From an uncultured Candidatus Melainabacteria bacterium (GTDB lineage Bacteria > Cyanobacteriota > Vampirovibrionia > Gastranaerophilales > Gastranaerophilaceae): a stretch of 64,000 nucleotides of DNA. The stretch covers positions 1 through 64,000 of the forward strand of contig CATKZI010000007.1 in the NCBI GenBank assembly GCA_949841365.1. Reading direction: 5' to 3'. Below, in pieces: positions 1 through 18,532 of this stretch. The translations under genes and the position numbers were made by a program. A model generated the notes under the pieces. It saw only the letters and a program-made list of their open reading frames with translations, did not search any database and had not been told where the DNA came from. Numbering within the stretch: position 1 is the stretch's first letter; each line of letters starts with the position of its first letter.

Positions 1-1164
1 ATTTTTAGGGATGCTTCCTTTTATTTTGTAATATTTTACTTTAGAACAGTCAGAACTTAAAGAATATACTCTGTAGATATAAAAAGAATCGCTATGTCCT
101 TGTGAAAATTCAACTTCATTTATGGATACCTCAAATGGTTTATTAATACTTCCTGTTGTTGTTTTTACTTCTATATATATTTCTTTTTCTTCTTTGTTAG
201 GTAAAATCTCATAAGATAAAATATCATAGCCTAAACCATCACCTTTATCTTTAGAATCCCAATTAACTTTCTCTGATAAATCTTCTCTTCCCAAATCATT
301 CAATTTTTGTTTTTCAATCGCCAGAATGATTTGTTCCCCTGCATCACCAGCAATTTTCTTGTTTTTGTTACTTTTAACGTAATCTCTTTTTATTGGTCTA
401 TATTTTCTAGGTTGAGATGATTTCTTTTTGATGGAAACTTCCGGAGGTTGTGTTTCTACAACGATATCTGTAATGTTGGTTGGGATTTCGAAACTAACAT
501 CATCTTTATCATATTCAATTTTGTCGTCAGATATTTTACTTATATCGATACCGTCTACATTATCCTCTGCAACCAATTCATCAATCATAAACGGATTATC
601 AGAAGAATTTTGAAACGGGATCTCTCTTTCTATAAAGATTACACCACGACGTTCTTCTTCAAAAAGTTTTTCTAAACCGATTCCAGCAGGCCAATTATCT
701 GGCAATACATCTACATCAAAAAAACCTGCATAATATGAATTTGTTGACGTTTTAAGAATGTATATGGTTAGATTTTCTGTTACGTTTGAAAAATTCGGGT
801 CATTTTCAAAGTCAGGTTCTGGAAAGTTGTTATCTGGTGACCATGCCGGATGCTTGTGCTTTAAATTTTGTCTTGATATTTTGTAATTTTTTCTATTATG
901 CCTTGGTTCAAATTCAATTTCCTGATGAATATTTCTATTCCCTAATACTGATACATCAATGACAAAAGATGGTCTATCGTCACCTACATATGTAGACGGA
1001 ACTGTCCTACCTCCTGTAGAAAATTCGGCAAATTCTTCTGTTGTAATACCAGTAGCATCAATATATGTCTGTCCTCCTCCTGTTTCAGGCTTATCAATAT
1101 CGTACATTTTTTTAAAATCAGAAGGATTTAATTTTCTATATAAAATTGCTTTAATATATTCCAT
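1..1164 (-). CDS. DUF3883-type restriction nuclease, 3' end outside window
   Basis: The reading frame is open for 388 codons and leaves the left edge without a stop, so the C-terminus is missing. The last ~120 residues match the DUF3883 pattern as I know it: GDAGEQ near residue 270, GDGLGYDI near 308-315 and YIEVKTT near 329. The D...E-x-K spacing fits a PD-(D/E)XK nuclease fold. The N-terminal ~260 residues (with GGGQTYI near residue 30) I do not recognise; they could recognise DNA. It starts at ATG 1164, 11 nt after the D12 methyltransferase stop, with a weak GTAGG ribosome site, so it is the third gene of a methylase-methylase-nuclease operon. I infer it is the restriction subunit. Nuclease activity is not proven by the sequence. 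Confidence 0.72.
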   Translation of the reverse strand, partial: MEYIKAILYRKLNPSDFKKMYDIDKPETGGGQTYIDATGITTEEFAEFSTGGRTVPSTYVGDDRPSFVIDVSVLGNRNIHQEIEFEPRHNRKNYKISRQNLKHKHPAWSPDNNFPEPDFENDPNFSNVTENLTIYILKTSTNSYYAGFFDVDVLPDNWPAGIGLEKLFEEERRGVIFIEREIPFQNSSDNPFMIDELVAEDNVDGIDISKISDDKIEYDKDDVSFEIPTNITDIVVETQPPEVSIKKKSSQPRKYRPIKRDYVKSNKNKKIAGDAGEQIILAIEKQKLNDLGREDLSEKVNWDSKDKGDGLGYDILSYEILPNKEEKEIYIEVKTTTGSINKPFEVSINEVEFSQGHSDSFYIYRVYSLSSDCSKVKYYKIKGSIPKN

Positions 1165-1175
1165 GACTATACCTA

Positions 1176-2219
1176 CTACTTGTATAGTTCAATTATATAT
1201 TCCTGAATTTTATTAGGCAATTCGCTTTGATTGCTCCTAAATCTTTTATAATCTATTGTGGATACTTTTGTTTTTCCAAATTGGTTAAGGAAATCAACTA
1301 ATTCATTTATGGATAAGAGACCATCTTCGCTATAACTAATTAAGAAACACGGACAATTCATATCTGTAATAACTTTTTTAAAAGAATCTCTTATTCGAGT
1401 CTTTGTACAAAATTTTGAATGTTGATCCCACCAATCTCTTAAACCACTTTTCCCTTGTGCTATTGGATTATCACCTCTGGCAATAGTTTCTAATATATGA
1501 TAATTTGCAGCATACTGGCGCTTTGTATATGGAGGATCAATATAGCATAAATCTGCTTTAATATTTTTTGCAACATCTTCTGCGAAACCTTGCATAACCT
1601 TATTATTTGTAGATCCTATATTACAAAATTCTTGCTGTTCTAAAAAAATATCCTCAATAGAATTTTTTGTAAATTTAGATAAAAAATACCCATATGTTCC
1701 AGATATATTAGCGACCTTATTCACTGCCATTATTAAAGTATGCTTTAATACTGCTTCTTCGTTTGAATCAATTTTTTTATTTTGAATCCAGTTCTCAAGT
1801 TCTCGTCTAATGGCATCTATTTTTTTTGCATTTTTAGATACAAAATATTTTCTTGGCGAATATCCATTGTTTGGAATTCCCTCTGGGGAAAATTCATTAT
1901 AGAAATATCCTTCTATTCCTTCTAAGTTGTTTAAATATGCAAGAATAGATTCATACATACTCATACCAGCTATTTTTAATGATATCAAGCCCTTGAATTC
2001 AGGGCTTTTGCTATTTAATAAATTTGTAATCAAATGACATTTGCTATATGTCATCATATCGGACGCAATAACATTATAACCATTTTTCCTGTATTCTAGT
2101 GATACCATACCAGTCCCAGCCATAATATCTGCTACTGTTCCGGATTTACCAATAATGTCTTTAGTCTTTCCAATTATATAATCTAATAATTTTGATTTAT
2201 TTCCTATATATCTATACAT
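1176..2219 (-). CDS. D12-class N6-adenine DNA methyltransferase
   Basis: The 347-residue protein opens with YRYIGNKSKLLDYI, the usual start of D12 (Dam/FokI-type) adenine methyltransferases. The S-adenosylmethionine motif I follows (MAGTGMVS near residues 33-40), and the catalytic motif IV is DPPYTKRQY near residue 228, followed by NYHILET. It would methylate adenine N6 in DNA. Only one nucleotide separates its ATG from the TGA of the upstream methyltransferase (TGA-A-ATG), so translation is coupled. A nuclease gene follows 11 nt downstream. Two methylases beside one nuclease suggest an asymmetric recognition site with one enzyme per strand. Substrate class is firm; the recognised sequence cannot be read from the protein. 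Confidence 0.9.
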   Translation of the reverse strand: MYRYIGNKSKLLDYIIGKTKDIIGKSGTVADIMAGTGMVSLEYRKNGYNVIASDMMTYSKCHLITNLLNSKSPEFKGLISLKIAGMSMYESILAYLNNLEGIEGYFYNEFSPEGIPNNGYSPRKYFVSKNAKKIDAIRRELENWIQNKKIDSNEEAVLKHTLIMAVNKVANISGTYGYFLSKFTKNSIEDIFLEQQEFCNIGSTNNKVMQGFAEDVAKNIKADLCYIDPPYTKRQYAANYHILETIARGDNPIAQGKSGLRDWWDQHSKFCTKTRIRDSFKKVITDMNCPCFLISYSEDGLLSINELVDFLNQFGKTKVSTIDYKRFRSNQSELPNKIQEYIIELYK

Positions 2220-2220
2220 T

Positions 2221-3918
2221 TCAATACTTCATATGATTAATTGCACCTAAATTAGGCAATTTATTTATTTCTGTTTTTATTATTTCAATATCATTATCAG
2301 TTAAATTATAAAGTTTATAAATTAAATTTTCTATCTGAAAATCAATATCTCTTGAATAATTATTTATAATTTTCTTTGTCAAATTTGCTATTTCTAAACA
2401 TATATCCATGTTTGTATTATCAATTTGTCGTATAGGTAAGCAAAATACTACTTCTTTTGTAAAATATGGATGAGATTTCCATTCATTTTCACCAAAAAGT
2501 TTTAAATAATAATAATACATTACTCTTGAATTTAAAACACCTAAATAATATTCAAGAGGGATATTATTTTCTTTTATATAATTACAGGAATAAACTGTTT
2601 GAGAAATATATGTACTATCATAATCTATACAAGCATTTATTCCCAAACCAGTTTTTCTAATTAAAATTTTAGGAGGCATATAAATATCTTTACTTTTATA
2701 ATCAATACCTTTTTTATTTTTAATTATATACTTATTACCTTTCAGGTAATAACGTTGTATATTTTCACCAACATAGATCTTTGTATAATTATCCTCTTTT
2801 GAAGTACTAATAACAGATTCAATATTATTTTTACTAAATTGAAAAATCTTTGAACAATTTTTACAAATTTTACTTCCTGCATTAATTTGTTTTTTTGAAA
2901 CACCTTGTGCTATTCCACAATATGGACATTCGACAACTAGACCTTGTTTGGATATTTCTACTCCTCTATTAAATTTAAAAATCGAATTCCAATCAATTTT
3001 ATTTTGTTCAATTTTTCTTATTAATAATTCTTCTTGTTCTTGCGTATCAATATCAAAATTATAATTTAAGTTATTACAAAACCTATCTTGTTTTACAAAG
3101 TGCGCAACTTCTATATAATGTCTATAAATATCAATATTATTACTAAGATAATCTTTTCTTGCATTAGTCGCAAGCCTAAAACATTTAGTTTTTGTTAATT
3201 TTGTTGGTTTACATTTTTTTGTGATTATAATGGTAGTTGCCCTATGGACACCTTCAAAAATTTTTTCTCCCAAACGAGCAATAACTTTTATTGATGATTT
3301 TTCTAGAAGTAATTTTCTTAAATTACTTTTTTCATCCGAAAACACTGAATCTGGAAGAATAAAAGCACAATATCCATCATCTGCAACAATATTAAGACAC
3401 AATTCTATAAACAATTCATAGCTGTCATATTGTCCTTTACTTAGTGTAAATCCATGCTCTAATAAAATATTTTTATCATAAATTCTATTAGAACTCCAAG
3501 GGGGATTTGAAATAATAAGGTTAGGACTATCAAACTTTAATTTCCAAAAATATTCTGTAGATATTTGATTTGTAGGCAAAATAGAATCAAAAGAATCAAA
3601 TATAAAATGTCTACCAGAATATAATTTTTTATTATTGTTAATAACATTCTTATCTACATCTACACCAATAAAATCTATGTTAAATTTTCTATTATTAATT
3701 CTATTTATAGAATTTAAAAGAGCATTTTCGCCACATGAAGGATCTAATACAATAAATTTCTCCTTCTTTACAAAAGATTTATCATTTTTGATTTCATTTA
3801 TTACTATTTTAGAAACAAAATCTGCTAATTCTGGAGGGGTATACACGACTCCATAACCTGATTCTTCTATTAAGTTTTTATAATTATCTTTTGTTTTACT
3901 AGCTAATTGTTGTACCAA
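2221..3918 (-). CDS. N6-adenine DNA methyltransferase (TaqI/Eco57I-like) with zinc ribbon
   Basis: A 565-residue gamma-type methyltransferase. It has VVYTPPELADF near residue 24, motif I DPSCGENALL near 59 and motif IV SNPPWSS near 138. A target-recognition region follows. Inside that region sits a CPYC...CKNC four-cysteine zinc ribbon (about residues 328-356), uncommon in this family. The C-terminal part (IYMPPKILIRKTG, YYLGVLNSR) resembles Eco57I/type IIG specificity regions. The first usable codon in frame is TTG at 3918, preceded by GAGG about nine bases upstream; no ATG lies near. First gene of the restriction-modification operon. It is more AT-rich than the chromosomal genes further right, in keeping with horizontal transfer. 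Confidence 0.88.
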   Translation of the reverse strand: MVQQLASKTKDNYKNLIEESGYGVVYTPPELADFVSKIVINEIKNDKSFVKKEKFIVLDPSCGENALLNSINRINNRKFNIDFIGVDVDKNVINNNKKLYSGRHFIFDSFDSILPTNQISTEYFWKLKFDSPNLIISNPPWSSNRIYDKNILLEHGFTLSKGQYDSYELFIELCLNIVADDGYCAFILPDSVFSDEKSNLRKLLLEKSSIKVIARLGEKIFEGVHRATTIIITKKCKPTKLTKTKCFRLATNARKDYLSNNIDIYRHYIEVAHFVKQDRFCNNLNYNFDIDTQEQEELLIRKIEQNKIDWNSIFKFNRGVEISKQGLVVECPYCGIAQGVSKKQINAGSKICKNCSKIFQFSKNNIESVISTSKEDNYTKIYVGENIQRYYLKGNKYIIKNKKGIDYKSKDIYMPPKILIRKTGLGINACIDYDSTYISQTVYSCNYIKENNIPLEYYLGVLNSRVMYYYYLKLFGENEWKSHPYFTKEVVFCLPIRQIDNTNMDICLEIANLTKKIINNYSRDIDFQIENLIYKLYNLTDNDIEIIKTEINKLPNLGAINHMKY

Positions 3919-4265
3919 TCTTCATACCTCTTTTATATATTATCTCAAAAATATAGAATTTTAAATCGATGGAATATAGTCATTTTATTATATTTTTTGT
4001 TGTTTTGTCCAATTTGTAAAATTTATACATTTGAGATTTTCTTATATATTAACATTAACTCTGAAGTTAAAAATTTGGAACCTAATTACATATAAATATG
4101 TTGTTTTGTGTATTAATTTTCAACCTAAATTTACTTTCTAGAACTAATAAGAAATGAAGTCGAGTTTAATATAATTAACTGGTTTTATTCAAAATAACTT
4201 TATCTCGAATAGAATTGCCATATAAGAATAAATTATGTCAAGTTCTTTTATATTTATTAAATGCT
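3919..4265. other. AT-rich intergenic gap between CoiA-like and restriction-modification genes
   Basis: About 350 bases without a convincing gene on either strand. It must hold the promoter of the restriction-modification operon: on the minus strand TATAAT lies near 3995 with a TTGGAC-like element only about 14 nt upstream, a poor spacing, so I do not assign it firmly. No terminator hairpin is evident after the CoiA-like gene. Confidence 0.4.
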
Positions 4266-5066
4266 TTACAAGCGTCTAGAAAATCGTCTTCTTGTATATC
4301 TTGGTCTTAATTGATACTGTACAAGTCTTTGAGTTTGCATATTTTTCAGTTTCCTATACAGTTCAGGAATTTCCCGGGTTAAATTATTTAAATAATTTAA
4401 AATTGCATCATTTTGTACATTATATATAAATGTACTACGCGTCATTCTCACAATAATTGCTTTATTATCAACAATAACGGGTAACACACAAAATAAAAAC
4501 TGTCTAATATCATTTTGTGGTATATTTTCTTCAATTCCTAAAAAGTCAAACAAAATTGGAACATTTGAATTGCGCCACATTTTCGGTATTGCACTTTGTG
4601 GATTATGACACAAAAATAGAGCAGGTTCTGCGGGTTTGCCTATAAGTTCAAAAGTTCCATTTTGAAATTTCGGATAATCATTTTTTAATCTAGTTCCGTC
4701 AATAACCCATAACATATTTTTATAAAAATTTTCTCTAAAAATTTTTTCCTCAGGTTTTATTGCGGAATGTTGAAATTCTATAACTAGATTGCTATCTGTA
4801 CATATATCTGCAATATGTTTTTCTCCGGTTGCGTCATCAGTAAATATTTTTTCTTGCCATTCTGGCGCAAAATAATTTTTCCAATTTCGATGCCAAATAG
4901 TCTCATTTTCCCACCAAGCATCACAATTATGTTTTGTTTTATGTGCCCAATGATTAATTTTATAGTTTCCACATTTTGCTATAACAGTACTTCCGCACAC
5001 CGGACAAATACCAACTTGTCCTTTTGCGGCTTCGACTTTTTCGTTATTTACCAATGCATATTTCAT
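4266..5066 (-). CDS. CoiA-like nuclease
   Basis: A 266-residue protein with the CoiA layout. The N-terminal zinc-finger-like segment has CPVCG near residue 21 and NHWAHK near residue 38. The nuclease core has HIADI near residue 84 and VIEFQHS near 94-100, the D...E-x-Q form of the PD-(D/E)XK site. The C-terminal ~100 residues are unassigned and end in an Arg-rich tail. CoiA promotes recombination after DNA uptake in competent Firmicutes; related proteins also sit in defence and mobile regions. No competence gene is adjacent here, while restriction genes lie downstream and a transposon module upstream, so a role on mobile DNA is more likely than in competence. That role is inference. Confidence 0.75.
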   Translation of the reverse strand: MKYALVNNEKVEAAKGQVGICPVCGSTVIAKCGNYKINHWAHKTKHNCDAWWENETIWHRNWKNYFAPEWQEKIFTDDATGEKHIADICTDSNLVIEFQHSAIKPEEKIFRENFYKNMLWVIDGTRLKNDYPKFQNGTFELIGKPAEPALFLCHNPQSAIPKMWRNSNVPILFDFLGIEENIPQNDIRQFLFCVLPVIVDNKAIIVRMTRSTFIYNVQNDAILNYLNNLTREIPELYRKLKNMQTQRLVQYQLRPRYTRRRFSRRL

Positions 5067-5206
5067 TATTAGTTCCTTATAATATTTACATTATTATAAT
5101 AACCAATGTTTATGTCAAATACGGACACAGCACATTTTAAGATATAAATTCATCTTTACTACTTTCTTCTACTTTTGATACATCAATTGTGTTAAAGGTG
5201 GATTTT

Positions 5207-5995
5207 ATGAAGTTAAGAATCATATCTGATATACATTGCGATATTAATTCAGGGAAAAATACAAGTTTTGATTTTGCACCGGATGATTTTGTAATTTGTT
5301 GCGGAGATATTTCAGGAGATAGAATTACAACCGAAAAATGGATAAATAATAATCTGAAACAAGGGATTGTTGTCGATGGAAATCATTTAGGCTACACTCA
5401 CTTTACTTATGCCAAAGAAGAATCATTAAATTTATCTATAAAATATCTTCAAAACAAATTCTTAGGACCTGTACATTTTTTAGAAAATCAGAGCATTGTT
5501 ATTGATAACATTTGTTTTATAGGCTGTATTTTATTTACTGATTTTAATTTATATGGAAACTCTGACGGTTGTAGGTTTATTGCACAAAAATATTTGAATG
5601 ATTTTAGAAATGTAAAATTGTACGAAAAAGGAAAATTAAAAACAATTTCCACAGAAGATCAATTGGCGCTTCATAAGAAAAGCATTAATTTTATTGAAAA
5701 AACTTGTCAAAAATACAAAGATAAAAAAATAGTTGTCGTAACTCACCATGCACCAAGTTTAAAAAGCATTTCTGAAGAATATAAAAACGATTTATTATGT
5801 GCCGCATTTGCGAGCAATCTAGAATACTTGTTTGAAAGATATCCAAACATAAAATTGTGGTGTCACGGCCACGTTCACAATTCAGTTGATTACAAGCTCG
5901 GAAATGCAAGAGTTATTGCTAATTCTTTGGGTTACGGAAATGAAAACAAAGATTTTGATAGCAAAGGCATTCTGATAGATACTGGGGACTTATAA
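5207..5995 (+). CDS. Calcineurin-like metallophosphoesterase
   Basis: The 262-residue protein shows the complete two-metal phosphoesterase set: SDIH near residue 7, CGDIS near 32, GNH near 58, THH near 176 and CHGHVH near 215. It is probably cytosolic, since there is no signal peptide or membrane segment. A GTG 18 nt upstream is in frame, but ATG 5207 is preferred because AAAGGTGG stands about six bases before it. It is the only plus-strand gene in the first 10 kb and ends 3 nt from the stop of the third transposon gene (convergent). Substrate unknown: nucleotide, phosphoprotein or nucleic-acid substrates are all possible in this family. Probably transposon cargo. Confidence 0.85.
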   Translation: MKLRIISDIHCDINSGKNTSFDFAPDDFVICCGDISGDRITTEKWINNNLKQGIVVDGNHLGYTHFTYAKEESLNLSIKYLQNKFLGPVHFLENQSIVIDNICFIGCILFTDFNLYGNSDGCRFIAQKYLNDFRNVKLYEKGKLKTISTEDQLALHKKSINFIEKTCQKYKDKKIVVVTHHAPSLKSISEEYKNDLLCAAFASNLEYLFERYPNIKLWCHGHVHNSVDYKLGNARVIANSLGYGNENKDFDSKGILIDTGDL

Positions 5996-5998
5996 TTC

Positions 5999-7243
5999 TT
6001 ATATATGAATAATCGAATATATAGAATTAAGTAACTCCTCAAAATTACAAATACATTCTTTCCAAATCATTACAGTCAGGTGATGCTCCAAATATTTTCG
6101 CATACTTGCCATAAACTTTTTGCGGTAAAGAATGTTATACATTCTGCGGGCTTCTTTGACTTCCTCGGGTTGTTGACGTCGTTGCGACAACTTTGATTTT
6201 AGTGGTTTTTGAGTGATAAAAACATTGTCATTATAGCAGTACAAGCATATCGAAACATCGTTCATAAAAATCCTGACCTGCGGGATTTGAGGCTCGGAGT
6301 CAAAATGTTCAACTAATTCCTGATACTGTTTATCATAAATTTTTGCTCGAATATATTGATAAAAAGTTTCTGTTGTCGTGTTTCCTATATTTGCAATTTT
6401 TGCGGTTTGAGAAGCCGGTATTCCAAAGCAGAAGCATTTATAAATAATCTCGATTTGTTCGGCTGTCGCAAGATTGTAAACCTTCGGCAGCCGATTAAGA
6501 TTTCTGCGGACTTTTGGCTCTTCTTCTCTGCAATCCGGCATAAAATATTTAGGGAATATTCCCATCATCCCTTCTATTTGGTACTTTTTGCGTTTGGAAT
6601 GAAACGCAGAATATGAAACTTTTAGCTTGGGATTCTTTAGCGGAATTATTTCTAAAAAGCTACGAAGTTCTCTGCAATTCATACCTTCTGTGAGTTTAAA
6701 AAGTTTCAAGTATCTATATATAAATTCTTTGCCTCTGTCTGAAGCCACAACATATAGACGTTCTTCCTCTTTATTATGAAAAAGCTTTTTGACTTCCTTA
6801 TCCATTGCACGACGTTCGGAATCTTCTAAAAAATCATATAGTTTAAGCGACGAGCGTTTAATTAAATATTTCCCCTCTAAATCAGGTTCTTTATTCGGTT
6901 TAACAACATAATTCCCTTTAAGGCAGTTTCTTTTAACAGTTTCTTCCTGAATGTTCAGTAGTCGAGCAACTTCGGGCATTGTTAGCCAAATATCTGAATC
7001 GCCGCTTTGGCTTGTGGGAACTGGTTTATTCACACACTTTTTAAAATTTGTATATAGATATTCTGTATTTGATATCTTTTTAATTTGGTTTAAAGACTCT
7101 AAATCATTAAGCGCTTTTTGAATTGTTTTTTCATTTTCTTCAAGCATTGGCAAAATGTCAGACAGAGTAAATTTATTGAGTCCCTTTGCTATTTTAAGAA
7201 TTTTCATTTGTAAGTTCAATTTCTTCTGCGTCAGCATCGTCAT
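5999..7243 (-). CDS. Third protein of Mu-like module (HTH, accessory)
   Basis: I do not recognise a named family for this 414-residue protein. The first ~65 residues look like a winged-helix unit. Residues ~82-135 (DIWLTMPEVARLLNI... to LIKRSSL) resemble the N-terminal DNA-binding domain of the neighbouring transposase (DIWIDVETLAKLKNI...IKLSTL). A second HTH-like stretch, FGIPASQTAKIANIG, lies near residue 275. No DDE catalytic triad is evident. The gene overlaps the end of the MuB-like gene by 50 nt. ATG 7243 is chosen over ATG 7207 because GAAGGAGGTG sits seven bases upstream of it. The overlap and domain sharing suggest a transposition accessory or regulator binding the same element ends; that is inference. 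Confidence 0.7.
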   Translation of the reverse strand: MTMLTQKKLNLQMKILKIAKGLNKFTLSDILPMLEENEKTIQKALNDLESLNQIKKISNTEYLYTNFKKCVNKPVPTSQSGDSDIWLTMPEVARLLNIQEETVKRNCLKGNYVVKPNKEPDLEGKYLIKRSSLKLYDFLEDSERRAMDKEVKKLFHNKEEERLYVVASDRGKEFIYRYLKLFKLTEGMNCRELRSFLEIIPLKNPKLKVSYSAFHSKRKKYQIEGMMGIFPKYFMPDCREEEPKVRRNLNRLPKVYNLATAEQIEIIYKCFCFGIPASQTAKIANIGNTTTETFYQYIRAKIYDKQYQELVEHFDSEPQIPQVRIFMNDVSICLYCYNDNVFITQKPLKSKLSQRRQQPEEVKEARRMYNILYRKKFMASMRKYLEHHLTVMIWKECICNFEELLNSIYSIIHI

Positions 7244-7925
7244 TTTTTAACACCTCCTTCAAAGTTATTTCGTCAATTTCTTTTATTCCGTTTGATTTTG
7301 CGACCTGTTCCGCTTTACTGATAGTTTTTACCAATTGCCTGAATCGATTTGTGCGAGTGTATAAAAGTTTTTTGGCGCAATCCGTAAACGGAACTTCTGA
7401 TAATTGGTCGATTATTGAAGTTATATCCTGTTTTGAGAATGGCTCAAATTTTATTATTTCCAATAATCTGTCATATAAATGTTTGTGCCGTTGGAGCCTT
7501 TTATTTGCCGTACCCATTCCGACTAAAACAATAGGGATATTCGTTTTATCGTGAATGTCCCTTAAAGTTTCAACCGCCCGAGAATCAATCGTCAAATAGT
7601 CCGTTTCATCTACAATAATGGTTCTTGGAGTCTTGATTAATTGAACTACCACTTGATTGAAGATATCCGAGAACTTGTTATAAGGAATTTCGCCTAACTC
7701 TTCAACCATCTCTTCTAATAACCACCTAGCAGACATGAGATTGGCACTCCTGATTAGTATTGCATCATTTTGTGCCGCCCACCAAGTAATTGCGTAAGTT
7801 TTACCAAGACTGGGTTCGCCATAAACAAGTCCCATTCCGGGAACTCCGTCTTCTCTTTCACGCAGGCGGTTCATCATCGAGATTAGTTGTTTTACATTCT
7901 TTGTTTTTACGAAAACCTTTTTCAT
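7194..7925 (-). CDS. MuB-like transposition ATPase (AAA+)
   Basis: The 243-residue protein carries Walker A GEPSLGKTY near residues 36-44, Walker B TIIVDETDYL near 100-109 and the sensor segment IVLVGMG near 132. It has the length of MuB/TniB-type target-selection ATPases, which bind target DNA in an ATP-dependent manner and activate the DDE transposase. Its ATG overlaps the transposase stop (TAATG), and AAGGAG inside the last transposase codons serves as its ribosome site, so it is translationally coupled to the transposase. The end of the gene contains the ribosome site of the next gene. Family assignment is strong; naming it MuB rather than a related helper is a judgement from gene order. 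Confidence 0.88.
   Translation of the reverse strand: MKKVFVKTKNVKQLISMMNRLREREDGVPGMGLVYGEPSLGKTYAITWWAAQNDAILIRSANLMSARWLLEEMVEELGEIPYNKFSDIFNQVVVQLIKTPRTIIVDETDYLTIDSRAVETLRDIHDKTNIPIVLVGMGTANKRLQRHKHLYDRLLEIIKFEPFSKQDITSIIDQLSEVPFTDCAKKLLYTRTNRFRQLVKTISKAEQVAKSNGIKEIDEITLKEVLKNDDADAEEIELTNENS
7251..7260 (-). promoter_or_regulatory. Strong ribosome binding site inside the MuB-like gene
   Basis: On the minus strand GAAGGAGGTG is followed after seven bases by ATG 7243. It lies within codons of the ATPase gene and fixes the start of the overlapping third transposon gene 50 nt before the ATPase stop. Confidence 0.8.
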
Positions 7926-10009
7926 TACTGCTCCTTTCCGTATATTTCTTTGTATTCGTCTGATTTTATGTAGTTAGTTAGCCAAGTTCTGTCCTCTTGG
8001 CAGATACAACCATTCTGCATATGCCATTCATAACGCTCGTATGCACTTTTAAATATCGGCCTTGCAACAATTGAAGTTTTAACTTTGGGCTCAAAATTCT
8101 GTTGCGGCTTCGGTTCTGTTTTTTGTTCAGGTTGAACCGTTATTTCTTTAATCGGCTTGGGTTCAGGCAAGCGGATATTTTGCATTAATTCTTTTTCAAG
8201 ATAATCCATATCCTCTAAATTGAAATGCTCACGAACCGCCTTAATCGTTTTTCTGCGGAGCTTTTGTTGCTTTTCAATCTTTTGTTTGTAATCTTCAATG
8301 TCTTTAATATCGCCAATTTGATAAGCAAGCGGATGAGTTTCGGTTATTCGGTTTGCTTTACAGATAAATTCGCCCTTCATTGAATAAACTTTTATGTACG
8401 ATAAATCAAACAGGCTGTACTTTATGACAGTTTTCTCTTTAATTCCGTAGAGTGCCTCGTCAAAGTAATCCGCTTTCAAAAACCTTATTCCGTTTCTGCC
8501 GATACTCTTAATCTCTTGTGCCATCATCAAATCGTCAAGCAAGTTTTCGTCAATATTTTGTTTCTCGATTCCGTTTAAAACCTCTTGAATTGTTTTATCT
8601 CTATCATTAGGACAAGGTTGGGAATGTTTAAATTCAAGCCATTTTCCAATCATTTTAAGAGCCTGCTCTATTGTCGGGGTAAAACTGTATTTCTCGTGGA
8701 TATTTTTGTGCAACTTTTCGTTTCGCATAAGGTAAGCGGGTTTATTTTCAATGCTTGTCCCGATGTAGCTTGGAATCAGCTTTTCAAAACTTTCCTGAAA
8801 ATCCAAAAAGAAACGCTCGATGACTTTGGCTCGAGCGTTGTATGGAGTGGCATAGACAGGTTTTATTCCGAGTTTGTTGTAAACACCTGTAAATCCGAGT
8901 TCTTCAAACTTTTTATCGCCATTAAAGAATTTGCTTTTGAAGGCTCTACCGTTATCTTGGTAAACATATTCTGGGATATGATCCATTTTTAAAATTGCAT
9001 TACGGAGGGCAGACGCGATATTTTGCGTACATTCTTCAAGCATAATGTCGTAGCCGACAAGTCCGCCTGATTTCCAATCTAAGAAACCAAGCAGAGTCGC
9101 TCGGCAAGGTTTACCTGTGAACGGATTTATTACTTGGAAGTTGAGCGTATGCCCGTCTGCCACAAGCACTTGCCCTGCTTTTAAAAGTGCTGCGTTTCTG
9201 ACTATAAAGGGACTTACTTTATCCTTTAGTGCTTTTTCGCCATCTCGTGCGAGTGTCCATTTGTCAAAATTATTATCCCGAAACCATTCGGCATATCTTC
9301 TAAATGTAATATCTTTTGGTAAAATTTCTTGCCCGCGTTCCTTTAGAATATGTTTTGTAAGTGAAATAGCTTTGCCTATTGAAAACGCACTAGGGGACAG
9401 CAAAATCTGTATAAATATTTTAATCTGTTCTTCATTTAAGGTTGTTCTGTATTCTTTCCTTGTTGAATATTTATACTGCCCGACTAACGCTGTCCAATCT
9501 TTGTTGTAATCCAATAATGCACGCCAGCGATAAAGTGAGCCGATTGAGACTTTACCTAAGATTTTGAAAATCTCTTCTTGGAACATTCCTGTATTATATA
9601 ATTGCAGGAATTCTTTATCTGGAATATTCCCGTTGGTTTTAAGCTTATCCCTTTTATATTCTTTCCTAAAATCAAGCCAAACATAAATCAGGTCATATTT
9701 TGCAAGTGCAATTTTTCTTTGGTTTTCGGATATGAGTTTTTCTTGTTTAATATTGAAATTAGATAATTCAATAACCTCGTTATCACACGTTTTATAATCA
9801 TCATAATATTCCTGAAAATACTTAAGCTGAAGCTCTTCTTCAAGCGTTGATAGTTTAATTTTGTATGTTTTGCCGCCTCTAATATTTTCAACTTTGTATT
9901 CATATTTATTCTGATTAAGAGCAAGCCGAACAGCTCGACGAGTAATGTTTTTCAATTTCGCGAGTGTTTCAACATCAATCCAAATATCATTATTATTAAT
10001 GTCTGCCAT
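7925..10009 (-). CDS. Mu-type DDE transposase (MuA-like)
   Basis: A 694-residue transposase. The N-terminal winged-helix DNA-binding domain (DIWIDVETLAKL) is followed by a second helical binding region with SIGSLYRWR near residue 155. The RNase H-like catalytic core contains the triad: VLVADGH (Asp near 285), YQDNGRAF (Asp near 350) and ARAKVIERFF (Glu near 398). The C-terminal ~120 residues are basic and Gln/Pro/Glu-rich, as expected for the part contacting MuB. Length is close to phage MuA (663). ATG 10009 is preceded by AAGGATACGG. It is first in the transposition operon and next to the repeat-rich element end, as A is in phage Mu. No frameshift or stop is seen, so it may be active. Confidence 0.93.
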   Translation of the reverse strand: MADINNNDIWIDVETLAKLKNITRRAVRLALNQNKYEYKVENIRGGKTYKIKLSTLEEELQLKYFQEYYDDYKTCDNEVIELSNFNIKQEKLISENQRKIALAKYDLIYVWLDFRKEYKRDKLKTNGNIPDKEFLQLYNTGMFQEEIFKILGKVSIGSLYRWRALLDYNKDWTALVGQYKYSTRKEYRTTLNEEQIKIFIQILLSPSAFSIGKAISLTKHILKERGQEILPKDITFRRYAEWFRDNNFDKWTLARDGEKALKDKVSPFIVRNAALLKAGQVLVADGHTLNFQVINPFTGKPCRATLLGFLDWKSGGLVGYDIMLEECTQNIASALRNAILKMDHIPEYVYQDNGRAFKSKFFNGDKKFEELGFTGVYNKLGIKPVYATPYNARAKVIERFFLDFQESFEKLIPSYIGTSIENKPAYLMRNEKLHKNIHEKYSFTPTIEQALKMIGKWLEFKHSQPCPNDRDKTIQEVLNGIEKQNIDENLLDDLMMAQEIKSIGRNGIRFLKADYFDEALYGIKEKTVIKYSLFDLSYIKVYSMKGEFICKANRITETHPLAYQIGDIKDIEDYKQKIEKQQKLRRKTIKAVREHFNLEDMDYLEKELMQNIRLPEPKPIKEITVQPEQKTEPKPQQNFEPKVKTSIVARPIFKSAYERYEWHMQNGCICQEDRTWLTNYIKSDEYKEIYGKEQ

Positions 10010-12000: not shown

Positions 12001-12720
12001 ATGATATTGATAGAAAAAGGTTTAGTACCACATTCGTATAAAATAAATATTTTTGGAATTAGAATACGATTTCGAAACAAATTTGAAATGAAAAATAATA
12101 AAGTTATTATTGTTTCAAAGAATGGTAAAGAGTCTGTTAAAACGCCAAAAGGTTTAAAGGTTAAGTTTCTCGGTGAAAATTCACTGGTGAAAATTTATTC
12201 GCCATGCCCAAAATTCAAAAACTGTCAAATAACATGCTATGATAATGCATTTGTATCCATAGGTTCTTCTAACAGAGAAATTTCTAATTTAACAGTAAAC
12301 ATTTTTTCAAAAAATGGTAAGTTAATATTGGGTAATAATCTTAAAATTCGGGGGGGGGGCATTTTCATAGGTGATAAAGAAAATCTTTCAGTATCGATAG
12401 GCGACAATTGCTTGTTTGCTAAAACAGTAAGTATAAGAACTGCTGATTATCATGTTATTTATGATAAAGATACAAAACAGCCTTTAAATGAACCTGCAAA
12501 TGTCTCTATTGGTAATCATTGCTGGTTATGTGATGAAGCAGTTATTTGCAAAGGTGTTTCTTTGCCTGATGATACTATTGTAGGTGCAAGATCTTATGTA
12601 ACTAAATCATTTGAAAAACCAAATACTATTATTGCGGGAATACCGGCAAAAGTTATTAAAGATGCAAATACAACCTGGTCGGAAATGTCTTATGAGCAGT
12701 ATCTGGCATCAATCTCTTAG
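12001..12720 (+). CDS. Hexapeptide-repeat acyltransferase with poly-G tract (phase-variable candidate)
   Basis: The 239-residue protein ends in a left-handed beta-helix transferase domain: LSVSIGDNCLFAK, ANVSIGNHCWLCDEAVICKG and the closing AGIPAKVIK are hexapeptide-repeat hallmarks. Such enzymes O-acetylate surface sugars. The N-terminal segment INIFGIRIRFRNK is common in polysaccharide-locus enzymes. A run of ten G (12350-12359) encodes the Arg-Gly-Gly-Gly near residue 117 and keeps the frame open in this copy; gain or loss of one G would truncate the protein before its active region. The ATG is uncertain: TTGACA (11974) and TATACT (11994) abut it and no ribosome site is visible, so translation may start later or be leaderless. 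Confidence 0.85.
   Translation: MILIEKGLVPHSYKINIFGIRIRFRNKFEMKNNKVIIVSKNGKESVKTPKGLKVKFLGENSLVKIYSPCPKFKNCQITCYDNAFVSIGSSNREISNLTVNIFSKNGKLILGNNLKIRGGGIFIGDKENLSVSIGDNCLFAKTVSIRTADYHVIYDKDTKQPLNEPANVSIGNHCWLCDEAVICKGVSLPDDTIVGARSYVTKSFEKPNTIIAGIPAKVIKDANTTWSEMSYEQYLASIS
12350..12359 (+). repeat. Homopolymeric G10 tract within coding sequence
   Basis: Ten consecutive G in a low-G+C genome, inside the acyltransferase reading frame. The frame is open with ten G and would break with nine or eleven. This is the classic form of a slipped-strand mispairing switch. Confidence 0.9.
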
Positions 12721-17857: not shown

Positions 17858-18532
17858 ATGAAAAAAGCATTTACTTTGGCTGAAGTATTGGTCACATTGG
17901 GTATTATTGGTGTTGTATCTGCATTGACTTTACCTACGCTTGTTAAAAATCATCAACGTCAGGTTTACGTAACTCAGTTACAGAAAGTTGTTAATGAACT
18001 TTCGCAGGCAACAGAGCGGGCAATTCAAGAAGCTAATGCTATAACTATGTCTGAAACACCTTACAGATCTACTAATAATCGTGCTGCACAACAATTTTTG
18101 AGTAAATATTTAAAAGTTGTTCAGACTTGTACAACTGACAGAGCACCTTGTATGGCAAGTGAATACAAGCAATTAAACGGTTCAGCTTTTGACAGCTGGG
18201 CTATGGGAGTTAGTGCAACTTCTCCCTGTGTTTCATTGGCAAATGGGGCTGCTGTTTGCATGAGCGGTGGATTTGAAATGGATGAATATAGTAATGGCAC
18301 ATATGACTTGCATGATTATGTGAGAATTTATATTGATGTAAACGGTCCGCAAGCACCGAATATTTTGGGCAGGGACTTTTTCTATGCTGAATTATACAGT
18401 GATGGTAAAATTGCAGAAGGGTATGAGATAGACCCGACCTGGCACGGTGAGGAATGTGGTGTTGCTGATGCTGTATATGGTTCAGGATGTTTATCAAAAA
18501 TCATGTCTGACGGTTGGAAGATGGATTACTAA
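17858..18532 (+). CDS. Type IV prepilin-like protein (type II pseudopilin family)
   Basis: The 224-residue protein begins MKKAFTLAEVLVTLGIIGVV, the class III prepilin signal: basic leader, cleavage after Ala4 before Phe, Glu at mature position 5, then a ~20-residue hydrophobic helix. The body has several cysteines (TCTTDRAPCM, GEECGV, GSGC), probably disulphide-linked after export. ATG 17858 has GGGGAG upstream; longer starts add an implausible hydrophobic leader. No pilus assembly genes are adjacent, so this looks like one of many scattered minor-pilin genes typical of gut Gastranaerophilales. It would be processed by a prepilin peptidase and act at the envelope in adhesion or secretion. Confidence 0.88.
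   Translation: MKKAFTLAEVLVTLGIIGVVSALTLPTLVKNHQRQVYVTQLQKVVNELSQATERAIQEANAITMSETPYRSTNNRAAQQFLSKYLKVVQTCTTDRAPCMASEYKQLNGSAFDSWAMGVSATSPCVSLANGAAVCMSGGFEMDEYSNGTYDLHDYVRIYIDVNGPQAPNILGRDFFYAELYSDGKIAEGYEIDPTWHGEECGVADAVYGSGCLSKIMSDGWKMDY

Follow-up and report, generated by a model that had tools for sequence, protein, structure and literature searches.

The tract and its host gene

The stretch of DNA analyzed here (the window, 64,000 nucleotides) belongs to a 1.69-Mb genome of Candidatus Gastranaerophilales, gut relatives of the cyanobacteria, and contains a run of ten Gs (G10) on the + strand at positions 12350–12359. The run lies in an open reading frame of the same strand (12001–12720) encoding 239 amino acids, where it is read as ATT CGG GGG GGG GGC ATT (R-G-G-G). 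The frame continues uninterrupted through the tract up to the stop codon, i.e., the gene is open at tract length 10, and the strand carrying the Gs is G-rich at third codon positions. Directly upstream is TTC (12347–12349), which is common to most of the 50 tracts in the genome discussed below. The downstream flank, CATTTTCATAGGT (12360–12372), matches CANTTYT, with which the shared flank motif described below begins, only partially; the TTC and CANTT parts of the flanks are present, and the AGCTT end is missing.

The encoded protein matches a Pfam hexapeptide repeat with a score just under the curated cut-off and, therefore, the name hexapeptide acyltransferase is fair but broad. The first-pass annotation had described the gene as a hexapeptide-type transferase in the ON state and the tract as very unlikely to have arisen by chance, and the analysis agrees on these points. 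In a first-order model, ~0.003 runs of at least ten are expected per 64 kb and 0.08 per genome, which rules out a chance origin. Besides this tract, the window contains no G or C run longer than 6.

Eight orthologous acyltransferase genes, 51–71% identical, are present in congeners. At the site of the tract, they contain Arg-Gly-rich codons without any indel; G10 was not found in any of the eight, and one has G7. The tract arose in place; it ends in CGGGGGGGGGGC, compared with AGAGGGACAGGA in the nearest ortholog. The lack of G10 in the orthologs rules out a switch dedicated to this single gene. The phase-variation switch proposed earlier is partly supported: the tract is not conserved in the acyltransferase gene, whilst the part that stands is the genome-wide set of tracts in surface genes that are built as frame switches.

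A family of frame-setting tracts

A scan for further poly-G or poly-C tracts of at least eight, suggested in the first-pass annotation, revealed 50 G tracts in the genome. At least nine bases are found in 48 of them, the other two being shorter, and 42 have a length of exactly 10. Long homopolymers in coding DNA are thus far above the 0.08 runs of at least ten expected by chance, and the tract in the acyltransferase is one of a family. The stretches around all 50 tracts were analyzed. Approximately 40 of the tracts come after the start codon but before the cleavage motif of a prepilin, (G/A)FTLAEVLITLGIIG. The N_methyl motif of prepilins, which have a class III signal peptide (PF07963; [GA]FTLAEV after a short basic leader), has 44 matches in the genome, about half of which adjoin a tract, and 20 pilins without a tract mostly have plain short leaders. 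By family assignment, the tract genes act at the cell surface. However, it is not surface acetylation, as supposed earlier, that would be primarily varied: the main targets are the ~40 prepilin genes.

The length of the tract sets the reading frame of otherwise intact genes. When pilins of the genome from which the window stems (the source genome), of genome G007 and of named loci of the order were pooled, 110 of them needed one additional base at tract length 10 to be read, three needed the loss of one base, and only six were in frame. The frames downstream of the tracts are intact, and an alternative start codon does not serve a majority of the pilins. Relative to the G strand, 22 pilins in the source genome are in sense and 17 in antisense orientation. 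The leaders of the two groups differ, with Gs in the coding strand specifying Gly-Gly-Gly in sense pilins and Cs specifying Pro-Pro-Pro in antisense pilins, and yet both follow one frame rule: closed at 10 and opened by one extra base. Two pilins (L016 and L056) are in frame by virtue of an 11-base tract.

In contrast, six non-pilin genes are in frame at 10, i.e., the transferase at 12001–12720 and genes for an Acyl_transf_3 protein, a Chlam_PMP-type autotransporter, a glycosyltransferase with an ATP-grasp domain, a DUF2142 protein and one unknown protein. The contrast with the pilins is significant (p = 2e-5). A tract length of 10 likewise keeps the frame open for two long proteins with prepilin leaders; YadA-head repeats were shown in one of them. 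At locus L045 (586–2550), a prepilin-type leader, YadA-head repeats and a Peptidase_S74 domain are combined in a protein that is in frame at tract length 10 and is perhaps a pilus-linked adhesin; a leader similar to that of L045 is found at L047 on a 695-amino-acid protein.

Several pilin leaders show further peculiarities. At L019, L025, L026, L027, L033, L266, and L273, short dispersed repeats (e.g., around TACGTACGTAGC) are located between the tract and the cleavage site, and at L266 and L273, FTLAE is duplicated with a short-repeat insert. The leaders at L271 and L272 contain an interrupted run (CCCCTCCCC), one in frame and the other not; apparently, these are decayed tracts. Contigs C1 and C4 end next to nearly the same tract pilin (L016 and L038; G11, differing by one base), as though tract loci interfered with assembly.

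Strand polarity and flanking motif

The tracts on each contig share one strand, with single flips. The tract strand changed between neighboring tracts in one of 39 pairs in the source genome, two of 72 in G007 and one of 29 in G018. Since dnaA lies on another contig, it was dropped as an origin marker, and strands were assigned by third-position GC skew. Both changes of tract strand in G007 coincide with a sign change of this skew, and in G000, G007, G018, and G025, the strand of the Gs does not vary from one skew flip to the next. Also the skew around single tracts agrees with the tract strand (46/49 in G000 and 57/60 in G007). Under the usual skew convention, therefore, the G strand is the leading strand and, hence, also the lagging-strand template. 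The polarity is independent of the direction of the genes; as the pilins point both ways, gene orientation was ruled out as its source. The interval at L047–L048 (C1, 257001–297000) in which tract strand and GC skew change contains dnaN and a XerC/D-like gene.

The tracts conform to the consensus TC-G10-CANTTYTNAGCTT, which is found on the same DNA strand for both gene orientations. With a matrix trained on sense pilins, antisense pilins and non-pilin sites scored far above position-shuffled flanks (p ≤0.0005), even though the motif is read there in unrelated codons. The spacing of the motif is not fixed in the antisense group of G007, as a shifted register gave an even higher score. A C is present on both sides of the run at 58 of 62 tracts in G007 and at 40 of 48 in the source genome.

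Phylogenetic distribution

In a search for TTC-G10-CACTC in one genome per species, nearly all matches were in named Candidatus Gastranaerophilales or gut metagenome-assembled genomes. A genome of the genus has up to 176 runs of at least nine Gs. Two sister genera have 13 and 35 such runs, and in the order's other families they are rare. The sequence CG10C is common in ~25 of the 33 genomes of the genus that were searched and rare or absent in the remainder; outside the genus, only two genomes contain it, with one occurrence each. Congener G002 has 74 G runs of at least nine but a single CG10C and may be a second non-polar case.

Congener G006 has 27 tracts with mixed strands, mixed flanks and lengths of 9–15 (21 read), and the flank motif was not found at these tracts. 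A length of exactly 10 is seen in 11 of the 21, vs. 57 of 62 in G007. Neither polarity nor motif was found in sister genus G033 and in Helicobacter marmotae, and no tract polarity was found in G034. Length, motif and polarity are missing together in one congener, one sister genus and Helicobacter. Loss of mismatch repair was rejected on the presence of MutS1 in the polar genomes (MutL was not searched for). Spread of the tract by phages was likewise rejected: the seven matches to TTC-G10-CANTT in IMG/VR had no pilin context by eye.

Interpretation

These observations on the tracts, their set-point, frames, polarity, motif and phylogenetic range are probably best explained by a contingency system that operates at the level of the genus and has 10 as its fixed set-point, with pilins OFF by default and modifying enzymes ON. 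Its cis element would be TC-G10-CANTTYTNAGCTT, with the Gs on the leading strand, located in surface genes and mostly right after the start codon of prepilins. Slippage of the G run would shift the reading frame. Pilins would be silent at 10 and be read after gaining one G or losing two, whilst modifying enzymes and adhesins, including the acyltransferase at 12001–12720, would be read at 10 and lost upon a shift. Presumably, tract length changes in living cells by slippage during replication, and flanks and strand may be kept because they tune this slippage. We favor the view that selection acts on the mutational behavior of the element itself. Perhaps, the strictness of length, flank and strand comes about through a host factor that operates on the lagging-strand template; no such factor was found.

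Several findings weigh against this contingency system. Strain pairs gave no length variation, although the near-identical pairs, with otherwise one genome per species, had been retrieved by the exact G10 pattern and are therefore biased to G10. The length of 10 in G007, as compared with G006, is tighter than free slippage suggests, and only one of 49 scored tract pilins of G007 is in frame. Moreover, slippage should be repaired, as MutS1 is present. Finally, plain slippage predicts neither strand polarity nor the flank motif; exact length, motif and replication-strand polarity go beyond the ordinary slipped-strand tract of the first-pass annotation. A more far-reaching version is conceivable and is put forward tentatively: G10 and its flank may form a dedicated, replication-coupled switch cassette, in which a host factor reads the lagging-strand template and holds the length at 10, and rare one-base gains turn on single pilins from a silent repertoire of 40 to >100 genes.

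The nearly constant length could also mean that G10 and C10 are fixed slippery sites for recoding, at which a one-base slip of RNA polymerase or the ribosome allows all pilins to be made at a low level from unchanged genes. Consistently, the shift needed is almost always +1 base, which is the direction of a −1 ribosomal slip. However, slippage at the RNA level does not account for a G strand that tracks replication regardless of gene direction or for a flank motif that keeps to one DNA strand, and the non-pilin genes are already in frame at 10. In addition, transcriptional slippage on A or T runs far exceeds that on G or C runs. Recoding is, therefore, an unlikely explanation.

Polar G-rich DNA with a conserved asymmetric flank, repeated across a large pilin family, is also reminiscent of a recombination site that starts breaks or gene conversion between pilin genes, like the G4 element of Neisseria pilE, a G-rich element that is sensitive to orientation and linked to pilin variation (PMC3547852). 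However, the pilE element has four G runs, located upstream of a single expression locus, whereas in the source genome a single G10 in an AT-rich flank lies inside each gene, in the leader, where it sets the frame; four closely spaced G runs, as required for an intramolecular quadruplex, were not found at the tracts. Furthermore, codon choice right after the tract varies freely and, hence, there is by eye no sign of recent homogenization. A role in recombination is, thus, rather improbable.

Polarity might merely mirror base composition acting on ordinary poly-G contingency tracts. Third positions of the leading strand are rich in G, and a G/C ratio raised to the tenth power would yield a strand bias, with a rough fit in G006. 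The same calculation predicted 98.5% polarity in H. marmotae and 92% in G033, but the observed numbers were 13 tracts with and 45 against the bias in the former and six with and four against in the latter. As these counts contradict it and the flank motif is left unexplained, composition is a very doubtful cause. KOPS/SRS and other architecture-imparting motifs are leading-strand, G-rich and polar, and here, too, the strand bias reverses at origin and terminus, with near-perfect leading-strand polarity and flips at both GC-skew boundaries; nevertheless, a chromosome-orientation signal (KOPS/Chi-like) that happens to fall in pilin genes is hardly credible, because such motifs are spread independent of gene class, whereas ~80% of the sites here (~40/50, in prepilin leaders) lie in one short segment of one gene class, which segregation does not need, and some congeners have few or no sites.

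Other features of the window and genome

A prepilin N-terminus at 17861–17929 (+) has no tract and a short leader, MKKAFTLAEVLV, which contrasts within the window with the tract pilins elsewhere. Near the left side of the window, a gene for a Mu-type transposase (Mu-transpos_C, rve) is located at 7925–10009, and GC skew is negative over positions 1–8000, which suggests a mobile element. At locus L010 (1881–4089), a C10 lies between two serine recombinase genes, and the usual flanks are missing.

Known systems and implications

Phase variation by repeats in the leader is known for pilC and opa of Neisseria and, by poly-G tracts, for pmp genes of Chlamydia. As in the tract pilins, the repeat in pilC and opa falls within the region of a pilus or surface gene that encodes the leader, and the frame decides on expression; however, one or a few genes are concerned there, as opposed to ~40–60 prepilins per genome, with replication polarity, in the polar genomes analyzed here. 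The Chlam_PMP-type gene (L021) has a C10 in frame, but it is the only such gene with a tract in the source genome. At the poly-G contingency loci of Campylobacter and Helicobacter, the reading frame of surface genes is likewise set by G/C runs; for C. jejuni NCTC11168, the number of loci is 29, counting runs of at least 7 (PMC4965091). The tracts of H. marmotae vary in strand, length and flank, whereas those of the source genome are fixed in all three, with one gene class dominant.

In the library searched, no report of poly-G switches in Candidatus Gastranaerophilales was found, and a termite-gut paper only lists type IV pilus genes (PMC5877343). As far as this literature goes, strand polarity and flank motif are unreported.

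Contingency loci are usually seen as loose slippage tracts maintained by selection on single genes. In this genus, genomes contain tens to ~170 tracts, which in the genomes examined closely share one length, one flank and one replication strand, some congeners being without them. This looks less like a peculiarity of one gene than like a switch of surface proteins that spans the genome. It thus becomes possible to test directly whether bacteria evolve not just the tracts of their switches but also the machinery that mutates them, and a concrete hypothesis is provided for pilus variation in these uncultured gut relatives of the cyanobacteria.
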